From Thiosulfativibrio zosterae (GTDB taxonomy: Bacteria; Pseudomonadota; Gammaproteobacteria; Thiomicrospirales; Thiomicrospiraceae): a stretch of DNA of 64,000 nucleotides. The notes under the pieces are model-generated. The model searched no databases. It saw only the letters and a list, made by a program, of their open reading frames with translations, and was not told the origin of the DNA. This document shows, one piece after another, positions 4,977 through 51,441 of this stretch. Location of the stretch: positions 1,719,501 to 1,783,500 of the forward strand of contig NZ_AP021888.1 in assembly GCF_011398155.1 (NCBI RefSeq). The letters are read 5' to 3'. Each line of letters opens with the position of its first letter. The stretch's first letter is position 1. A program made the translations under genes and the position numbers.

Positions 4977-5615
4977 TCAGCCTTGATGCTGCAACAATGT
5001 GAGCAGGTGAGTGTCTATTTCCGCTTGAACTTCTTCAAGGGTTTTAGCCGCATTTAAAACCGCATAGCGTTGTGGCGCTAAAGCGGCTCTTTGTAAGTAG
5101 GCATCGCGAACTTTTTCAAAGAAGTCGGCTTTTTCTTGTTCAAACCGATCGGTTTGGCCACCGCGGGCTTTAACGCGCTGCATGCCCACTTCAATGGGTA
5201 AATCAAATACAAAGGTTAAATCAGGTTGAAAGCCTTGCTGAACCCAATGTTCCAGTGACGCAATGCGATCAAACTCCAAACCTCGAGCTGCGCCTTGATA
5301 GGCATAGGACGCATCGGTAAATCTATCCGAAACCACCCATTTTCCGGCTTGTAATGCGGGTAATATTTTCTCTTCTATGTGTTGATTGCGTGCGGCAAAC
5401 ATTAATAACAACTCAGTATTAGCGGTCATTTCTGTAAATTCGGTATTTAATAAAATACCGCGAACCGCTTCACTGATGGGCGTACCCCCTGGTTCACGCG
5501 TCACCACCAATTCAATGCCCTTTTGAGCCAACCAGGCTTCAATATACTTTAAATTGGTGGATTTACCGGCACCTTCTGTGCCTTCAAGGGTAATAAATTT
5601 GCCGTGTAAACTCAT
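4977..5615 (-). CDS. tmk: Thymidylate kinase
   Basis: A 212-residue dTMP kinase that makes dTDP from dTMP and ATP for DNA synthesis. It shows the P-loop EGTEGAGKST at 11-20, the DRF motif at 97-99 within VVSDRFTDASYAYQG, and a lid region with basic residues (KARGGQTDRFEQE), as in the enterobacterial type. Length and motif spacing are normal. It is followed by holB after 7 bp and preceded by mltG with a 62-bp gap, the standard gammaproteobacterial order. Confidence 0.94.
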   Translation of the reverse strand: MSLHGKFITLEGTEGAGKSTNLKYIEAWLAQKGIELVVTREPGGTPISEAVRGILLNTEFTEMTANTELLLMFAARNQHIEEKILPALQAGKWVVSDRFTDASYAYQGAARGLEFDRIASLEHWVQQGFQPDLTFVFDLPIEVGMQRVKARGGQTDRFEQEKADFFEKVRDAYLQRAALAPQRYAVLNAAKTLEEVQAEIDTHLLTLLQHQG

Positions 5616-5677: not shown

Positions 5678-6685
5678 TTAATTTGATAGCTGATAGGTTC
5701 TGACCGCTTGATTATGTTCAATCAAAGTTTCAGAAAAATGATGCTGCCCTTGCCCTTTCGCCACAAAGTATAAGGCATGCGTTTCCGCAGGATGGCACAC
5801 AGCCTCTAGCGCATTGCGACTGGCCAAAGCAATCGGCGTTGGCGGCAACCCATTGATGCGGTAGGTATTATAGGGCGTCAGTGCCAGTATATCTTTTTTG
5901 CGAATATTGCCATTAAAGGCATCGCCCATGCCATAAATAATGGTGGGGTCAGATTGCAAACGCATCCCCTTGCGTAGTCGGTTTAAAAACACAGCGGCAA
6001 TCATTGGGCGCTCGGCAGCATCTCCAGATTCTTTTTCAACGATGGATGCCAAAATCAGTAATTGCTGCGGCGTTTTAATCGGCAGTCCTTCTTGGCAATT
6101 ATCCCAAGTCTGCTCTAAGGTTTTTTGAAGCGCTTGATGCGCTCTAACCCAAAGGGATACTGCAGAATCTTCTCTAGAATAATGATAGGTTTCGGGTAAA
6201 AACTGTCCTTCAAGATGTGTCAAATTAAGCTGCTTTTTTAACACACTCTCCAATGATTCATTCGATTCTTTCAGTTGAGGATTTAAACTTTTTAACAATG
6301 CCATATTTTGGGCAACCGTTTTGCCTGCAATCAAGGTTGCCGGATATTGCACCGTTTTACCAGCAACCAACGCATCAATTAATTCATGAACCGTCCACTG
6401 AGGGTTAATTTCAAACTCGCCTGCTTTTAGAGATGCACTTTTACCTTCGTACTTTAAAACCCAAACAAACCAAGTCGGATGATGCAGCAATTTTTGTTGA
6501 TACAACAGGTTTGCAACTTGTTTTGCCGAACGCCCCTCTGGAATGGTTAAAACCGGCTTAGTTTCCAGCTCGGTAAAACTGATGGGCTGAGTGACAAAGC
6601 GATAAAAACTCCATCCCTCTACCGACAACATAATCACTAAGAAACTGCTCAACAGCGTCCATAATAAGAGTTTAAGTTTTTTCAT
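5678..6685 (-). CDS. mltG: Endolytic murein transglycosylase
   Basis: A 335-residue YceG/MltG protein with an N-terminal membrane anchor (about residues 4-24), a LysM-like region rich in short strands (about 45-110) and a catalytic C-terminal domain. The catalytic Glu is E217 in ASIVEKES. The conserved block around YGMGDAFNGNI and NGLPPTPIALASR is intact. It cuts nascent glycan strands in the inner membrane and so limits strand length. Its ATG overlaps the pabC stop by four bases (ATGA), implying coupled translation. Confidence 0.92.
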   Translation of the reverse strand: MKKLKLLLWTLLSSFLVIMLSVEGWSFYRFVTQPISFTELETKPVLTIPEGRSAKQVANLLYQQKLLHHPTWFVWVLKYEGKSASLKAGEFEINPQWTVHELIDALVAGKTVQYPATLIAGKTVAQNMALLKSLNPQLKESNESLESVLKKQLNLTHLEGQFLPETYHYSREDSAVSLWVRAHQALQKTLEQTWDNCQEGLPIKTPQQLLILASIVEKESGDAAERPMIAAVFLNRLRKGMRLQSDPTIIYGMGDAFNGNIRKKDILALTPYNTYRINGLPPTPIALASRNALEAVCHPAETHALYFVAKGQGQHHFSETLIEHNQAVRTYQLSN

Positions 6686-7572
6686 TGAGCCTTCTCTTCA
6701 AAGGTTGGGTTGGTTAAATAGGTCATTATTTGCTGGTGTAGCGCTTGACCTTGTTTGATAGACCAAGGCTGGCCTTCTAAACTTTCCATGGACATAATGC
6801 CACGCACGGCATTACAAAAAAAGACTTCATCAACCTGGTTTAAAAATGCCAAATCAAAATCGACTTCTTGCCAATCATACCCCATCGTCGGTGCCCAGTT
6901 TTTTAAGCTGGCCAAAAAAGTACCCTGAATGCCACATGAATCTAAATTAGGCGTTAATAAAGTTTTACCTTTTAGCAATACAATATTGGATTGAGTTCCC
7001 GAAATCACTCGACCAGCAGCATCCAACATAATGCCTTCAGACATGCCCTCTGCCAACTCATTACGCGCTAAAACATTATCAAGCCGATTGAGGTGTTTTA
7101 GCCCTGCCAACTGTTTGTTTTGGCTCCAAAGGGTCTGACAAATTTGTGCTTTTACGCAAAAAAACGACCAGGCCTGGTCATTTTTAACGGTTTTAGAAGC
7201 GATTTTAACGGCCGTTTTATCAGTTGCGGGATAAGGCAAGGTTTGCACTAAAATACGCGGGGTAGCCTCTGAGCTGGGTAAAGGTTGATAGCCTTTACCG
7301 CCGCATCCGCGAGTCACTATGATTTTGATCACCGCTGGTTCGCTCTGCGATATTGACGCCAATGCGCTCTGACACATTTGCTGTAAACTTTTCCAGTTTA
7401 ATACCGGAAACTTTAAGCGTTCTGACGCTTCTTTTAAACGCTGTTCATGTCTTAGCCAGTTTACCAACTGGCCATTGATGACGAGCATGGTGGTAAAAAA
7501 ACCATCGCCATAGGCCAAACCTCTATCGCAAGCTGGCATAACCTCTTGTTGCTGACCATCCACCCATATCAT
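6682..7572 (-). CDS. pabC: Aminodeoxychorismate lyase
   Basis: A 296-residue PLP enzyme of fold type IV that converts 4-amino-4-deoxychorismate to 4-aminobenzoate for folate. K159 in GLKHLNRLDN is the expected PLP lysine, and the family start VDG and DRGLAYGDG are present. It overlaps both neighbours by four bases (pabB stop at its start, mltG start at its stop). The insert NDQAWS at about 131-136 is encoded by a copy of the dispersed palindrome in a poorly conserved region, which suggests the element was tolerated there. Confidence 0.92.
   Translation of the reverse strand: MIWVDGQQQEVMPACDRGLAYGDGFFTTMLVINGQLVNWLRHEQRLKEASERLKFPVLNWKSLQQMCQSALASISQSEPAVIKIIVTRGCGGKGYQPLPSSEATPRILVQTLPYPATDKTAVKIASKTVKNDQAWSFFCVKAQICQTLWSQNKQLAGLKHLNRLDNVLARNELAEGMSEGIMLDAAGRVISGTQSNIVLLKGKTLLTPNLDSCGIQGTFLASLKNWAPTMGYDWQEVDFDLAFLNQVDEVFFCNAVRGIMSMESLEGQPWSIKQGQALHQQIMTYLTNPTFEEKAQ
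7166..7179. repeat. Dispersed palindrome, copy 2 (in pabC)
   Basis: GACCAGGCCTGGTC, a perfect 14-bp palindrome with A-rich and T-rich flanks (AAAAC before, ATTTTT after), the same flank pattern as the intergenic copies. On the pabC strand it encodes Asp-Gln-Ala-Trp-Ser. Confidence 0.85.
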
Positions 7573-8957
7573 TTAGACGATAATCCAAACTTCACATGAT
7601 TGAGCGCGTTAATAAGACCTTTGGCTTTATGGCGGGTTTCTTCCAATTCTTTATCCGCTATCGAATCGGCGACTATGCCCGCTCCTGCCCGAAAAGTCAC
7701 TTGATTGCCTTGCATGAGCATGGTTCGAATGAGAATATTAAAATCTAAAGAGCCATCATGGTTGATATAACCCAGCGAACCTGTGTAAGCCTTTCTTGGC
7801 ATTTGCTCAAGTTCAGCGATGATTTCCATACAACGCACCTTAGGGCAACCCGTAATGGTTCCCCCAGGGAAAACGGCATGAATAATGTCTAAAGGCAACA
7901 TTCCTGCTTGCAGTTTGCCGCGAATATTGGAAACAATGTGATGTACATGCTCATAGGTTTCAACCACCATCAACTCATTGACTTCAACCGTTCCGGGCTG
8001 ACAAATTCGTCCCAAATCATTGCGTTCCAAGTCAATCAGCATAATATGTTCAGCACGCTCTTTGGGATGTGAAATCAACTCGTCTATCAAGGCTTGATCC
8101 GCCAAGGCATCGGTGCTGCGTTTGCGAGTACCAGCAATGGGCCGTGTTTCTACCCAAGGATGCTGATACTTCACCAAGCGCTCGGGCGATGAGCTGAGCA
8201 ATTGCCAATCGCCAAAATGAACACAAGCCGCAAAAGGCGCAGGATTATGCTTCCGTAATGCCCGATAAACATCTGCATAATTGTCACCGTCTAAAGCAAC
8301 TGACCATTCACGGGATAAATTTACTTGGAAATTATCACCCGATAAAATGTAATCCTTAATCGCTTCCACACCAGACAAATACTTGGTTTCTGGCTCTTCC
8401 GAGGCACTCAAAATCACTGATGAATTGACAGTTTTAGTTGCTTGGGGGGCATGATTAACAGCTAGAACGCTGGCAATATCTGCTTCTATTTGAGGCAAAA
8501 GTGTTTGAAACTCAAACTCCGCCAATAAAAATAACGACTCAGTGGCGTGTTGCTTAATCAAAGCCGCAGGCATTCTGGTGAGCGTTGCCAAAGGCAAATC
8601 AGACATGGGTAAATTTAAAGAGGGCTCAACGACATTGGCATAGTCATAGCTAAAATAGCCAAACCATCCGCCACGAAATGGCAAATGTTCATCTAAATCA
8701 TCGGCTAAAGATGAAGGCAAGGATGTTTGCAAAAACGCTTGATTAAATTTTTCAATAAAACCAGCGGCATCCTCTAAATTTTGGCAAGTGATGGTGTGCT
8801 GTGGATAAGCAAACAAAATATCAAACGCGCCCAAACTGCCATGAGCGACACTTTCCAGCAAGAAAGGATAACGCTCAGGAAACGCTTGATGTAAGTCTAA
8901 AAAATCCAGGTCTGCATAATGCGGACTCTGGATTTGAATCAAATTTGACGAGGCCAA
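7569..8957 (-). CDS. pabB: Aminodeoxychorismate synthase component I
   Basis: A 462-residue chorismate-binding enzyme that makes aminodeoxychorismate with a PabA glutaminase. The C-terminal catalytic domain is intact: LIDLERNDLGR, FPGGTITGCPK and YTGSLGYI. At the position where many PabB proteins have PIKGT, this one has PIAGT (273-277), the TrpE-like residue. The direct overlap with pabC and the folate context favour PabB over anthranilate synthase. It sits between fabF (17 bp away) and pabC, where Escherichia coli has no gene. Confidence 0.85.
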   Translation of the reverse strand: MASSNLIQIQSPHYADLDFLDLHQAFPERYPFLLESVAHGSLGAFDILFAYPQHTITCQNLEDAAGFIEKFNQAFLQTSLPSSLADDLDEHLPFRGGWFGYFSYDYANVVEPSLNLPMSDLPLATLTRMPAALIKQHATESLFLLAEFEFQTLLPQIEADIASVLAVNHAPQATKTVNSSVILSASEEPETKYLSGVEAIKDYILSGDNFQVNLSREWSVALDGDNYADVYRALRKHNPAPFAACVHFGDWQLLSSSPERLVKYQHPWVETRPIAGTRKRSTDALADQALIDELISHPKERAEHIMLIDLERNDLGRICQPGTVEVNELMVVETYEHVHHIVSNIRGKLQAGMLPLDIIHAVFPGGTITGCPKVRCMEIIAELEQMPRKAYTGSLGYINHDGSLDFNILIRTMLMQGNQVTFRAGAGIVADSIADKELEETRHKAKGLINALNHVKFGLSSK

Positions 8958-29419: not shown

Positions 29420-30631
29420 TTATTTTAAGCGTTTTTTAGCGGCGGTTCTTAAACGCAAAGCATTCAACTTGATGAATCCTTCAGCATCTTTATGGTTGTA
29501 AGCACCACCATCTTCTTCAAAGGTGGCAATGGCTTCGTCAAACAAGCTGTATTCAGAAGTACGACCTACTATGACCACATTACCTTTGTACAATTTAACG
29601 CGCACATTACCGGTTACATAGGTTTGTGACTGGTCAATCAACGCTTGAAGCATTTCACGCTCTGGTGCAAACCAAAAACCGTTATAAATCATCTCAGCGT
29701 ATTTAGGCATTAACTCATCTTTTAAATGCGCCGCATTACGGTCAAGCGTTAAAGACTCCATCGCGCGGTGCGTTTTTAGCATAATGGTTCCCGCTGGGGT
29801 TTCATAACAGCCGCGTGCTTTCATACCCACAAAGCGGTTTTCAACAATATCATCACGACCGATACCATTCGCACCGCCCACTTTGTTTAAGTATTCCATG
29901 ACGGTTGCCGGCGACATAGCTTCACCATTGATCGATACGATGTCCCCTTTTTCAAAACCAATATCAAGGTAAGTGGGTTCATTAGGCGCGTTTTCTGGGG
30001 AAACACTCCATAACCACATATCTTCTTCGGGTTCGTTAGCAGGATCTTCAATCACGCCACCTTCATAAGAAATGTGCAGTAGGTTGGCATCCATCGAATA
30101 AGGCGACTTTTTGCCTTTTTTCTTTTCAATCGGAATATTGTGCTCTTCTGCATAGGCCATTAATTTTTCGCGAGATAATAAATCCCATTCACGCCAAGGG
30201 GCAATGACTTTAACATTGGGCATTAACGCATAAGCATTCAGCTCAAAACGCACTTGGTCGTTGCCTTTACCCGTTGCACCATGCGCAATCGCATCAGCAC
30301 CCACCGCTTTGGCAATTTCAACCAAACGCTTAGAAATGAGCGGACGCGCAATTGAAGTCCCCAAACGGTATTCGCCTTCATACATGGCATTAGCACGCAT
30401 CATGGGGTAAACGAAGTCGCGCGCAAATTCTTCACGCAAATCTTCGATGTAAATTTCTTTAATACCCATGGCTTTGGCTTTGGCGCGCGCTGGCTCTACT
30501 TCTTCGCCCTGACCGATGTCGGCAGTAAAAGTAACCACTTCACATTGGTACTCATCTTGTAACCATTTTGCGATGATAGAAGTATCCAAACCACCTGAAT
30601 ACGCCAATACAACCTTTTTTATGTCTGACAC
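29420..30631 (-). CDS. argG: Argininosuccinate synthase
   Basis: A 403-residue enzyme of the arginine pathway that joins citrulline and aspartate. It has the ATP loop AYSGGLDTS at 10-18, [13 protein letters not shown] and [17 protein letters not shown]. Length is normal for the short bacterial form. It is divergent from psd and followed by a terminator. Its product pool links to carbamoyl phosphate from carAB at the other end of the window. Confidence 0.95.
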
Positions 30632-46818: not shown

Positions 46819-46839
46819 AAATGTAAATTTTTTACATTT
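46819..46839. promoter_or_regulatory. Operator O1: 21-bp palindrome upstream of the cluster promoter
   Basis: A perfect 21-bp inverted repeat with AAATGTAAA and TTTACATTT arms (core ATGTAA-N5-TTACAT at 46821-46837). It ends 3 bp before a -35 box. Confidence 0.7.
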
Positions 46840-46842
46840 ATA

Positions 46843-46871
46843 TTGACATCACCACCCACAAAGCTTAATAT
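46843..46871 (+). promoter_or_regulatory. Promoter of the DUF2202 lipoprotein gene
   Basis: TTGACA, a perfect -35, lies 17 bp before TAATAT. The predicted start is near 46878, with operators on both sides. Confidence 0.65.
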
Positions 46872-46882
46872 GCACTTAACAA

Positions 46883-46899
46883 ATGTAAAAACTTTACAT
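46883..46899. promoter_or_regulatory. Operator O2 at the predicted transcription start
   Basis: ATGTAA-AAACT-TTACAT, the same core as O1 and O3. It begins 11 bp after the -10 box, a typical repressor position. Confidence 0.7.
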
Positions 46900-46925
46900 A
46901 TTTTAAGCCGATGGGAGAAATCATC

Positions 46926-48299
46926 ATGTTAAGCCAAACTTTCAAATTCAAAAAAATCACCCTAGCCATAGCACTGACCCTTCCGCTTTTAAATGGCTGT
47001 AGCGGAACCAGCGGCGCATCTTCAGCAGATACCAGCAACTTAACCACTACGGATATCACCGTAGAGCGTGGCCCAGTGCTGAATGCGGTGGTTAAAGATA
47101 AAAATGGCAAAATGGCGGTTGCGCAAGGCAACGGCGTTTATCGTTTCACAGGGGATTTCGAGTATCCGCTTGAAACCACGGGCGGAGTGATTGACTTAAA
47201 TCACAACGGTCTAGTTGATGATGGCGATCTTAAAACCGATGGTTTAAAACTTCGCGCCAATGAAGGTAAAGTTTTAACCTTAGCGAGCACCCTTGCTATA
47301 AATACAGAGTTACAACAAAAACTGATTGATAATATTGATTTAACGGCAGATGCCATTCAAACGCATACCCCAACCAATGACAAAGCCATTGCCGCCTTAA
47401 GTGACGAAATTTATAAATACTGTATTGAAAACGGCATTACCGATGCATCTACCTTAACCACAGAACAATGGGAAGCCATTGAATTAAATATTCAAAACCG
47501 CATTGCCAACTATCTTGCATCCGAAAAAACTGCAGCTGAACTTGAACAAGAAATGGTTGATGGATTAGTTGACCCATTAAATCCACCCCCATTACTTTCT
47601 CAAGCAGAAATTGATGCCATTAACAACAATGAGGGCACTCATTCTTTAGAAGCAACCCTAGCCACTTTGCCAGTCTACGACCTAACCGATGAACAAAAAG
47701 CCACGCTGGCTTTTATGTGGAATGAAGAAAAAATGGCCAAAGATCTCTATTTTTCATTAAACGATCTTTACCCAAGCCAAACGCTTTATAACATTGCCAC
47801 CAATGCAGAAACTGAGCATCAAAACTCAGTTGCAGCCTTACTGCAAAGATATAACTTGGACTTAGAATATTACACTGACCCAAGCTATTCGTTCTCTCAA
47901 GAACAGCTCGACAGTTACCCAACAGGCAGCTTTTCAAACAGTGATGTTCAAGCACTTTATAACGCACTTTACAGTGAAGGAGCGGCTTCCGCACAAGCCT
48001 CTTTAGAAGTGGGCTGTAAAGTAGAAGTAACTGACATTAATGATTTAAACACTTATATTGAAGTGGCTGGAGAAGCGCAAGATATTAAAATGGTATTCGA
48101 AAACCTTCGTAAAGGCAGCTATAGCCATTACTGGGGATTTGACACTGCCTTAAAAGCACAAGGCGTCACAGATGGTTGTTGTTCTTTGGGTGCGGACTTC
48201 TGCCATCCAGAATATCCTGCTAATGATATGCAACAACAAGGACAAGGGTCTGCTGATGGCACGGGTGAGGGCATGAGACTTCAAAAAGGCAAACATTAA
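46926..48299 (+). CDS. DUF2202 ferritin-like lipoprotein
   Basis: About 457 residues. A lipobox LNGC places the lipid-bearing Cys near residue 25. An N-terminal region has an EF-hand-like loop, DLNHNGLVDDGD. From about 240 a DUF2202 domain follows: LTDEQKATLAFMWNEEKMAKD, ATNAETEHQNSV and LRKGSYSHYWGFDTAL, whose E...ExxH and late His look like metal ligands of a four-helix bundle. The Cys-rich end has GCCSLGADFC. The ATG at 46926 has GGGAGAAA upstream. A metal-related envelope role is inferred only. Confidence 0.75.
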   Translation: MLSQTFKFKKITLAIALTLPLLNGCSGTSGASSADTSNLTTTDITVERGPVLNAVVKDKNGKMAVAQGNGVYRFTGDFEYPLETTGGVIDLNHNGLVDDGDLKTDGLKLRANEGKVLTLASTLAINTELQQKLIDNIDLTADAIQTHTPTNDKAIAALSDEIYKYCIENGITDASTLTTEQWEAIELNIQNRIANYLASEKTAAELEQEMVDGLVDPLNPPPLLSQAEIDAINNNEGTHSLEATLATLPVYDLTDEQKATLAFMWNEEKMAKDLYFSLNDLYPSQTLYNIATNAETEHQNSVAALLQRYNLDLEYYTDPSYSFSQEQLDSYPTGSFSNSDVQALYNALYSEGAASAQASLEVGCKVEVTDINDLNTYIEVAGEAQDIKMVFENLRKGSYSHYWGFDTALKAQGVTDGCCSLGADFCHPEYPANDMQQQGQGSADGTGEGMRLQKGKH

Positions 48300-48358
48300 G
48301 TCTCACATTTAGGCAAACTGAAGTCCAACTAAAAAGTGACTGATTAGCATGGTATAAA

Positions 48359-48402
48359 ACGGGTTAATTCTAACTAGGCCTGGTTAAAATTGGCCCGATT
48401 TT
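48359..48402 (+). terminator. Terminator-like stem after the DUF2202 gene with the dispersed palindrome
   Basis: CGGG pairs with CCCG around the palindrome and TTAATT/AAATT flanks, followed by ATTTTA. Confidence 0.45.
48372..48385. repeat. Dispersed palindrome, copy 11
   Basis: AACTAGGCCTGGTT, the same one-base variant as copy 7, again after a gene end. Confidence 0.85.
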
Positions 48403-48453
48403 ATGCTAAATTTCAAGTATTTAATAGACTCAAAATATATATTTTTTACCCCA

Positions 48454-48482
48454 TTGACTTGCCCAAATAGCTAATCAATACT
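48454..48482 (+). promoter_or_regulatory. Second cluster promoter
   Basis: TTGACT and AATACT are 17 bp apart, with a predicted start near 48489. Operator O3 follows directly. Confidence 0.55.
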
Positions 48483-48492
48483 ATTGGCGAAT

Positions 48493-48509
48493 ATGTAAAT
48501 TTCTTACAT
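48493..48509. promoter_or_regulatory. Operator O3 at the second promoter
   Basis: ATGTAA-ATTTC-TTACAT begins 10 bp after the -10 box, matching the placement of O2. Confidence 0.7.
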
Positions 48510-48539
48510 AGCACCCTATCCAGAAGGAAAAAATGTAAA

Positions 48540-48752
48540 ATGAGTCACACGCTTAAAGCACTTTTTGTAACCGGCTTAATTTTAACTGCAAGCACCAGCT
48601 TTGCGGCAGACGAAGAAGATACCCAAGCCAAGTTGGCCAAATTTCAACCAACTGCAGCTCAATTGCAAGCTGGTTTAGATATGGAAGAACCCGAAAAGGA
48701 TGAGTCAGCAAAAGCAGAACCTAGCAAGACTGAAACCCCCGCTGCAAAATAA
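48540..48752 (+). CDS. Small secreted acidic protein, unrecognised
   Basis: A 70-residue protein with a clear signal peptide (LKALFVTGLILTASTSFA, cut near residue 22). The mature part of about 48 residues is charged and Glu/Lys/Pro-rich without Cys. The only AAGGA is 11 bases from this ATG and closer to an overlapping ATG-TAA at 48533, which could slow initiation. It is the first gene after promoter 2 and is probably transcribed with the barrel gene. Function unknown. Confidence 0.7.
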   Translation: MSHTLKALFVTGLILTASTSFAADEEDTQAKLAKFQPTAAQLQAGLDMEEPEKDESAKAEPSKTETPAAK

Positions 48753-48793: not shown

Positions 48794-49528
48794 ATGACAA
48801 AACACAACACATCATTTTGGATTTTTTTAGTAGCAGGTGTTTACGCATCTGCCACTTTTTCAGACGACACGGCGATTTCAACGCAAATCACCAGCGGTTT
48901 TTTTATTAGCCAAGGCCAAAGTCAAACCTTAGGCAGCCCGAATTCAACAACCTATTCAATCCCTTTAATGATTTCCAGCCGCTCAGGTCGATTTCAAGGG
49001 GCGCTTATTACCAATTATTTGCAAGTCAACAATGATTACCCCACCGTCAACCTAACCAATCAGCAACAAGGCATGGGCGATACCATTTTATCTGTGGGTT
49101 ATGATCTTCTTGAACAACCTTGGATAACGCTTAAACTCAAACATAAATTTGCCACAGGTGATAAAAATAAAGGCCTAAGCACCGGAAAAGACGATACTGC
49201 TTTGCAGTTAGACTGGTTAAACCAATTTCAACCCAATACCGCAGGCTATGCAACCCTGGGGTACAAGTGGGTTGGTCAAGTGAATGAATATGCCATGCAA
49301 AATAGTGGCTATGCCACAGCAGGTTTACTCCAGCGTTTAACCCCTCATAATCATTTAGGGGTTTCCTTGGACTACACTCAAACCAGCTATACCGAACTTA
49401 AAGATGCCCTAGGGGCAAGTTTATTTTTAAGTCATCAACTGAATACATCGATGACTTTAACCAGCCTTTCCAGTTATGACTCAACCTCTAGCAGCAATTT
49501 TGGTTTAACAATTACAAAACAATTTTAA
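48794..49528 (+). CDS. Outer-membrane beta-barrel-like protein
   Basis: A 244-residue exported protein. After a signal (about 1-23) the sequence shows alternating hydrophobic strands and turns, such as TLKLKHKFATGD and NSGYATAGLLQRL, and ends GLTITKQF, the C-terminal Phe being the outer-membrane insertion signature. About eight to ten strands are expected. It could be a small transporter or structural porin-like protein. It is the second gene after promoter 2 and lies 10 bp before the DUF6502 gene. Confidence 0.68.
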   Translation: MTKHNTSFWIFLVAGVYASATFSDDTAISTQITSGFFISQGQSQTLGSPNSTTYSIPLMISSRSGRFQGALITNYLQVNNDYPTVNLTNQQQGMGDTILSVGYDLLEQPWITLKLKHKFATGDKNKGLSTGKDDTALQLDWLNQFQPNTAGYATLGYKWVGQVNEYAMQNSGYATAGLLQRLTPHNHLGVSLDYTQTSYTELKDALGASLFLSHQLNTSMTLTSLSSYDSTSSSNFGLTITKQF

Positions 49529-49537
49529 GAGCCACCT

Positions 49538-50404
49538 ATGCCCATTGAAGAAGAATTAAGCTTAAAAGACAAAGCCCTAACCAAAGCATTAAAAACCATG
49601 CTTAAGCCCTTAGTGCGCTTGCTGATTCAGCAAAATATCACTTTTATTGGCCTACAAAATTTGCTCAAACGCACCTTTGTTGAAGTGGCAGATGAATCTT
49701 TTTGTTTAGAAAATAAAAAACAAACTGACAGCCGTGTCAGTTTATTAACGGGTATTCACCGTGCAGATGTTAAACGCATTCGCAACGAAGACCCAACCCA
49801 ACTCTCCGAAAAGGAAATCAAAGCCAGTTTAAGCGCACAAATTATTTCAGTATGGACGGGTAATACCCAATATCTCGACGAACAAAATCGCCCAAAACCC
49901 TTGTTAAGAACCAGCCAAGCCAATGCCAATCAGAAAAGTTTTGAAGAGTTAGTGCTGTCCATTTCCAAGGATAAACACCCCCGCTCTATTGTGGATGACT
50001 GGCTTAATCAGGGGATTATAGAACTTAAAACCGAAGGCGAAACCGAATGGGTTCTGCTCACCGAAAAAGGTTATGTACCAGAAGCTGACTTTGAAGAAAA
50101 GTTGTTTTTTGCTGGCAAAAATATTGGCGAACATTTGCATGTGGTGGCCAGCAATTTAGAAGGTCAAGCGGCACCCCTATTTGACCGAGCTGTTTATTAT
50201 GAAGGGCTGTCAGCAGAAGCCATTTTAGAATTGGAAACACTCGCCAAACAAAAAATTTTACAAGTCATGGTCGAAGTAAACCAGCGCGCCAACCTTTTAC
50301 AATCACAGCAAAAAGGCATGCCTGAGCCTTGTCAAAGTTTTCATTTTGGCGCTTATTTCAGCAAAACCACGCCCATCAGCCAAACGCAAACAGAGGAAAA
50401 ATCA
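49538..50404 (+). CDS. DUF6502 family protein
   Basis: A 289-residue soluble protein (stop TGA ends at 50407). It begins with a helical segment (LTKALKTMLKPLVRLLIQQN) resembling a small helix-turn-helix-like or regulatory module, followed by a Lys/Arg-rich region that includes VSLLTGIHRADVKRIRNED. I recall this family as uncharacterised and found next to DUF5666 genes; that is memory, not a search. It might be the DNA-binding regulator of the nearby ATGTAA sites. Its TGA overlaps the ATG of the next gene. Confidence 0.6.
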
Positions 50405-51441
50405 TGATGAGCTTTTCTCTGTTCAACAAGCGCTCCTACCTTTTTATCCTAAGTATTTTAAGTTTGTTTGCACTGCTTTCGGCTTGCCAAATACAACCTA
50501 CTCAAACCGCTAACACCTCTGGGTTTGGTGGCACCGGTTCGCCCATGATTGCCTTGCAAGATTCCATGAGCGGATTTGGCGGCACAGGTAAAACCTCGTC
50601 TGGGTTTGGTGGTACGGGTATCGTGGGCACCATTCAAGCATTTGGCAGTATTTGGGTGAATGGGATTGAAATTGGTTACGGCGAAAAAACCCAAATTGAG
50701 TCTAACTTAATGCGCCATGACACCTTAAAACTGGGACAACAAGTTCACTTAGAAACCTTGCCACTAGAAGACAAAACCCTCACCGGGCAAATTCATGTTT
50801 TTTACCCGATTGCAGGAGAGATTACCCAAATTGACGAACAAAACCTAACGATTAATCATCAGTTTATCGTGACCCGTGATGATGCCACCTATTACGATGA
50901 CAATCTAACCCTTCAGGTTGGAGAATTTGTGGCCATCAATGGTTATCAAAATGCCGAGCAAACTTGGATGGCAACCCGCATTAATGCTAACCCAGACCAT
51001 AAAACTTTTTACCAACCAGAACCTACGCTCAACTTTTCAAGTTCGGTGAAACAAATGGTGATTGAACAGCGCTTAATCAACTTTAAACCCTGGGAATCCT
51101 TGCAAAGACTTCAAGCCGTTCCGCTCAAACAAAATCATTTTGACAGCAAAATTTTGAGCAATGAACCCTTAGAAAATAAAGCGCATCCTGAACAGCCCAT
51201 GCAAATCATGCAGCCTTTAAATCCACCAAAAACGGAAACTATGGCAAAACCAGAAATGCCACTGCAGCTTTTACAACAACAGAAAAGTTTAATGGATGTT
51301 CCTCGCGAACAGCGAGATTTAATGCAGTTGCAAAGAGATTTGCAAACCCAGCAACAAGGGCTTCGTGAGCAACAGCAAGGATTACAAAACTTAAAACCCT
51401 TGATGCAACTCAATAACCTCAGACCGCAAAGCCATCCCTAA
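50404..51441 (+). CDS. DUF5666 lipoprotein with SGFGGTG repeats
   Basis: About 345 residues. Signal with lipobox LLSAC (Cys near residue 28), then three copies of SGFGGTG (about 37-66), then two DUF5666-like small beta domains: FGSIWVNGIEIGYGEK region and GEITQIDEQNLTINHQF region, together about 75-190. The C-terminal third is Gln-rich and helical (QQQKSLMDVPREQRDLMQLQ), ending in near repeats. The ATG overlaps the previous stop (ATGA). Probably an outer-membrane or periplasmic lipoprotein; no function known. Confidence 0.7.
   Translation: MMSFSLFNKRSYLFILSILSLFALLSACQIQPTQTANTSGFGGTGSPMIALQDSMSGFGGTGKTSSGFGGTGIVGTIQAFGSIWVNGIEIGYGEKTQIESNLMRHDTLKLGQQVHLETLPLEDKTLTGQIHVFYPIAGEITQIDEQNLTINHQFIVTRDDATYYDDNLTLQVGEFVAINGYQNAEQTWMATRINANPDHKTFYQPEPTLNFSSSVKQMVIEQRLINFKPWESLQRLQAVPLKQNHFDSKILSNEPLENKAHPEQPMQIMQPLNPPKTETMAKPEMPLQLLQQQKSLMDVPREQRDLMQLQRDLQTQQQGLREQQQGLQNLKPLMQLNNLRPQSHP

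Follow-up and report, generated by a model that had tools for sequence, protein, structure and literature searches.

The window analysed here, a stretch of 64,000 nucleotides from the marine sulfur bacterium Thiosulfativibrio zosterae, contains an accessory gene cluster with two predicted promoters, P1 and P2 (Table 1). The gene directly behind P1 encodes a DUF2202 protein. Behind P2 follow, in this order, the genes for a 70-aa exported peptide, an outer-membrane protein, a DUF6502 protein and a DUF5666 protein. The DUF6502 protein scored 95.1 bits against PF20112 (curated cut-off 27), and its stop codon overlaps the start codon of the DUF5666 gene (ATGATG). Given this overlap and the gene order behind P2, P2 should control DUF6502 itself. 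Inside the DUF6502 gene, the minus strand carries a site that scores as terminator-like (49719-49746), a stem of 12 pairs with T-rich sequence behind it.

Table 1. Predicted operators, promoters and genes of the cluster (window coordinates).
Feature	Position	Strand	Description
Predicted operator O1	46819..46839 (core 46821-46837)	.	AAATGTAA-ATTTT-TTACATTT; exact match; -35 begins 5 bp beyond O1 end
Promoter P1	46843..46871	+	TTGACA-17-TAATAT
Predicted operator O2	46883..46899	.	ATGTAA-AAACT-TTACAT; exact match; starts 11 bp past P1 -10
DUF2202 (ferritin-like) domain, lipoprotein-like gene	46926..48299	+	Pfam PF09968, E=1.4e-25
Promoter P2	48454..48482	+	TTGACT-17-AATACT
Predicted operator O3	48493..48509	.	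ATGTAA-ATTTC-TTACAT; exact match; starts 10 bp past P2 -10
70-aa predicted exported peptide	48540..48752	+	matches no family
Outer-membrane beta-barrel-like protein	48794..49528	+	weak DUF3187; relatives adjoin DUF6502 in 49/80 loci
DUF6502 protein, proposed regulator	49538..50407	+	PF20112, E=4.1e-27
DUF5666 protein with SGFGGTG repeats	50404..51441	+	PF18914, E=4.5e-15; DUF6502 neighbour in 48/80 loci

Palindromes at the two promoters

The palindrome ATGTAA-N5-TTACAT occurs in three exact copies at the cluster (O1, O2 and O3). An earlier sequence-only reading had described three copies at these promoters, and all were located. Its measurements were reproduced, namely the sequences and coordinates of both promoters with their 17-bp spacing, a palindrome beginning 10-11 bp after each -10 box, and a third copy just upstream of the first -35. 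A window scan allowing no or one mismatch found no palindrome beyond O1, O2 and O3, in agreement with the claim that the window holds no further complete copy. Two sites with two mismatches (at 30447 and 30529) correspond to chance level. Since a scan of the region for near-consensus promoters showed no enrichment (10 versus 8.8 in shuffled sequences), the P1 and P2 calls rest on conservation in other species.

The whole genome (2,645,427 bases, one contig) contains four exact copies, compared to 0.28 expected from a first-order Markov model, and three of them lie within 1.7 kb. For such a cluster the Poisson probability is ~1e-12. The fourth copy, at 2,627,604, is located in the promoter region of a gene for a 95-aa Gly/Gln-rich exported peptide. 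The genome search proposed with the sequence-only reading thus returned four exact copies only, all promoter-proximal, rather than a motif common genome-wide and without promoter preference. Copies with one mismatch are also present in the genome, e.g. in dnaB.

Conservation and predicted regulon within the bacterial family

Among 63 genomes of the same bacterial family, the exact palindrome was present in 18 of the 37 that carry DUF6502 and in none of the 26 that do not (Fisher 8e-6), a statistic affected by shared ancestry. In total, 44 palindrome sites were found in the family versus 9 for a reversed control pattern. About half of the DUF6502-positive genomes had no exact palindrome; some of these contain variant sites. 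In close relatives, most cluster sites are paired, and the DUF6502 gene begins 0.4-2.3 kb downstream of them. Such a pair brackets the operon promoter in 12 species, the window organism and 11 others, where O1 ends 4-7 bp before a TTGAC-like -35, the spacer measures 16-17 bp and O2 lies 5-19 bp past the -10. The distance between O1 and O2 is 62 bp in the window and 55-69 bp in the other species. No clear 10.5-bp period was seen among these distances, and looping via helical phasing is not argued here.

Unlinked palindromes precede stand-alone DUF2202 genes (L094, L098, L186, L189, L193), genes for Gly/Gln-rich exported peptides (L095, L096, L184, L188, L194) and the gene for a 410-aa membrane protein (L191, L192). 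In four species a palindrome pair 36 bp apart was observed (L097, 5112-5166; L183; L187; L195), with one mismatch in one copy each of the L183 and L187 pairs. Where callable (L097, L187), the gene behind the pair encodes a carbon-nitrogen hydrolase (CN_hydrolase). The operon leader gene in L197-L199 encodes a Met/Gln-rich exported peptide. Most likely, the predicted DUF6502 regulon is small and would comprise DUF2202, Gly/Gln- or Met/Gln-rich exported peptides, the outer-membrane protein and DUF5666. The ferritin-like DUF2202 and the Met-rich exported peptides suggest an oxidant or metal response, but this is no more than a guess.

Several further observations were made in these genomes. The Gly/Gln-rich peptides (L095 4519-4890, L096 3971-4351, L184, L188 and L194) have common C-termini, such as NRSGGGGKR, GAGGGGKR or NRSGGKR, which could represent a functional motif. 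Downstream of the peptide gene in L095 (5141-7944), an IS3-like transposase pair appears to split an exported-protein gene (5141-5434, 6652-7944). A tolQ/exbB-like gene is preceded by a palindrome at 72-95 bp in two species (L185, L190), perhaps by chance. The genomes of L088 and L091-L093 carry a divergent DUF6502 paralogue in addition (24-29% identity), with no TGTAA operator close by.

Operator series along the DUF6502 tree

A scan of 84,980 genomes yielded 80 DUF6502 loci, of which some are near-duplicates and some may carry wrong MAG names. One locus labelled Klebsiella pneumoniae (MAG; L140) is probably mislabelled, since its DUF6502 is almost the same as the one in L167, an uncultured gammaproteobacterium. 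At DUF6502 genes of other proteobacteria a related palindrome, GTGGGA-N5-TCCCAC, was found. Outside the window clade the sites follow TGGGA-N5-TCCCA, for the most part in the form GTGGGAA-N3-TTCCCAC. They usually come in pairs and lie 30-340 bp ahead of the DUF6502 gene. With at most one mismatch, TGGGA-N5-TCCCA occurred 81 times in 36 kb upstream of DUF6502 versus 17 times in 601 kb elsewhere, an 80-fold difference. When six genomes were searched whole, 11 exact copies were obtained from five of them, 10 at the DUF6502 locus. Methylococcales carry GTGGTAA-N3-TTACCAC. Hybrid sites, in which a TGTAA half is joined to a TCCCAT-type half, were found at L112, L115, L119 and L127, and three of these four loci form one branch adjoining the TGTAA clade. 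An operator of this series is located at the promoter of the DUF6502 gene or operon in 66 of the 80 loci, and weaker variants are present in several others. The operator sequence shifts along the DUF6502 tree while its position at the DUF6502 promoter is kept.

The AlphaFold2 model of the window DUF6502 (pLDDT 89.3) contains an HTH (64-82), a winged helix (135-174) and C-terminal helices; residues 146 and 147 are placed at the start of the second helix of the winged helix. Residue 147 tracks the base outside TGxxA, with Arg accompanying G (44 loci) and His accompanying A (17 loci), and 4 exceptions. Lys146 occurs with TGTAA in 11 of 11 loci, and Ile, Val or Met with TGGGA-type or hybrid sites. 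Residues 146 and 147 are thus candidate specificity residues, a lead rather than proof, because His147 is found with A in at least two separate branches. At three loci with a close, Thiomicrorhabdus-type DUF6502 in which HFR replaces HPR at 147-149 (L117, L120, L123), neither operator type was found. The series GTGGGA, GTGGTA, hybrid and ATGTAA, together with residues 146 and 147, makes co-evolution of repressor and site directly testable.

Proposed regulator, likely mode of action and possible kinship with HetR

O1-O3 are probably the operators of the cluster DUF6502 protein, dimers of which would repress the local operon, including their own gene, and a small regulon. What the analysis shows is that the sites are present, rare, conserved and linked to DUF6502; direct binding, the dimer state, repression and a signal are inferred. 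Each palindrome (17-21 bp) would be bound by one dimer, with one subunit on each half-site. A dimer on O1 would cover the DNA immediately ahead of the P1 -35, and dimers on O2 and O3 would cover the start of the transcribed regions, so that RNA polymerase would be blocked at both promoters. With P2 driving the DUF6502 gene, the outcome would be an autoregulated local switch that also acts on a few unlinked genes and may be released by some envelope or redox signal. The sequence-only reading had suggested that a local regulator acts as a dimer and had named DUF6502 as a candidate, and this view gained support from co-occurrence, synteny, the operator change along the tree, the locality of the sites and the DNA-binding folds in the model. 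Operator position makes the repression that it suggested the likelier mode.

Repression is favoured as the likelier sign because near-consensus promoters are overlapped or flanked by the predicted operators. In an unlikely alternative, DUF6502 binds the palindromes and activates, with O1 as the activator site and O2 and O3 serving autoregulation or fine-tuning. Activators, too, can act from about -50, where O1 is centred at its fixed spacing from the -35 in 12 species; the distant L095 site, which has the O1-type position only, 6 bp ahead of TTGACA, would also fit this alternative. However, P1 and P2 come near the consensus and have spacers of 16-17 bp, the promoters at O3 and at the fourth site of the genome have an operator only downstream of or overlapping the -10, and operators of other clades are likewise found near the -10. 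Equally conserved, O1 upstream of the promoter also argues against the repeats being RNA hairpins or DNA structures of 5' leaders. Such structures are hardly credible although the predicted leaders contain O2 and O3, since conservation concerns the specific half-site sequence (TGTAA or TGGGA) and not pairing alone.

It is improbable that an unlinked regulator binds the palindrome and that DUF6502 is merely a target gene. HexR, an RpiR-family regulator of gammaproteobacteria, has the operator TGTAATTAAATTACA, and its frame TGTAA-N5-TTACA is that of the window palindrome. However, the target genes are not alike, and a search of the genome for the RpiR-type HTH (PF01418) found none (8 of 14 control genomes positive); HexR was therefore rejected as the regulator. 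Furthermore, the operator changes along the DUF6502 tree yet stays at the DUF6502 promoter across widely differing genomes, and no DNA-binding protein other than DUF6502 is common to all these loci. As in TetR/CI-type local autorepressors, the regulator gene proposed here lies inside the controlled cluster and the operators overlap or flank the promoter. The difference is that in Pfam DUF6502 scores above the cut-off for no curated regulator family. A literature search found no paper naming DUF6502 and none with literal GTGGGA palindromes. For this large and widespread family the data propose a first role, as a local gene switch. They provide a predicted cognate operator for each DUF6502 clade as well as a small predicted regulon, and offer a handle on the DUF5666, DUF2202 and peptide genes, which are predicted targets.

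A sequence search for solved-structure relatives of DUF6502 gave none that was credible. By structure, HetR was the first PDB match for two independent DUF6502 models, one of the window protein and one of a distant homologue (L150; pLDDT 88.5). The matches are collinear from end to end, but their scores do not reach significance (Foldseek E values of 2.8e-3 and 0.068; Z 7.3 and 7.5; rmsd 11 Å). A possible distant HetR relative is thereby indicated. Membership by sequence was rejected: hhalign of DUF6502 with a profile of 2 HetR sequences (PDB chains) gave E 0.7 and a probability of 0.1%, and PF03574 (Peptidase_S48) was absent among the Pfam matches listed for 79 DUF6502 members. The HetR query sequence was confirmed by its PDB matches; a search for HetR homologues on plasmids, intended to deepen the profile, found none.

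HetR is the heterocyst master regulator of cyanobacteria, where it activates heterocyst genes and is released by the PatS peptide; so far it is known from cyanobacteria only. Its fold has three domains (HTH, flap and hood). HetR is autoregulated and binds as a dimer to a palindrome of 17 bp, in which GGGnnnnnCCC is required (PMC4192349). The flap, its middle domain, contributes a helix that completes the HTH and helps to read DNA (PMC4649674). An autoregulated dimer on a 17-bp palindrome is likewise proposed for DUF6502, and the residues that track operator bases fall in its middle domain, comparable to the HetR flap helix. In contrast to the HetR palindrome, the DUF6502 sites are GGG-N7-CCC or have no GGG (TGTAA types), and the window organism has no heterocysts. 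It would be a long shot to regard DUF6502 as a proteobacterial HetR relative for which a small Gly-rich exported peptide, encoded in the regulon, plays the releasing part that PatS plays for HetR. A C-terminal NRSGGGGKR or similar sequence is found in several of the regulon peptides.
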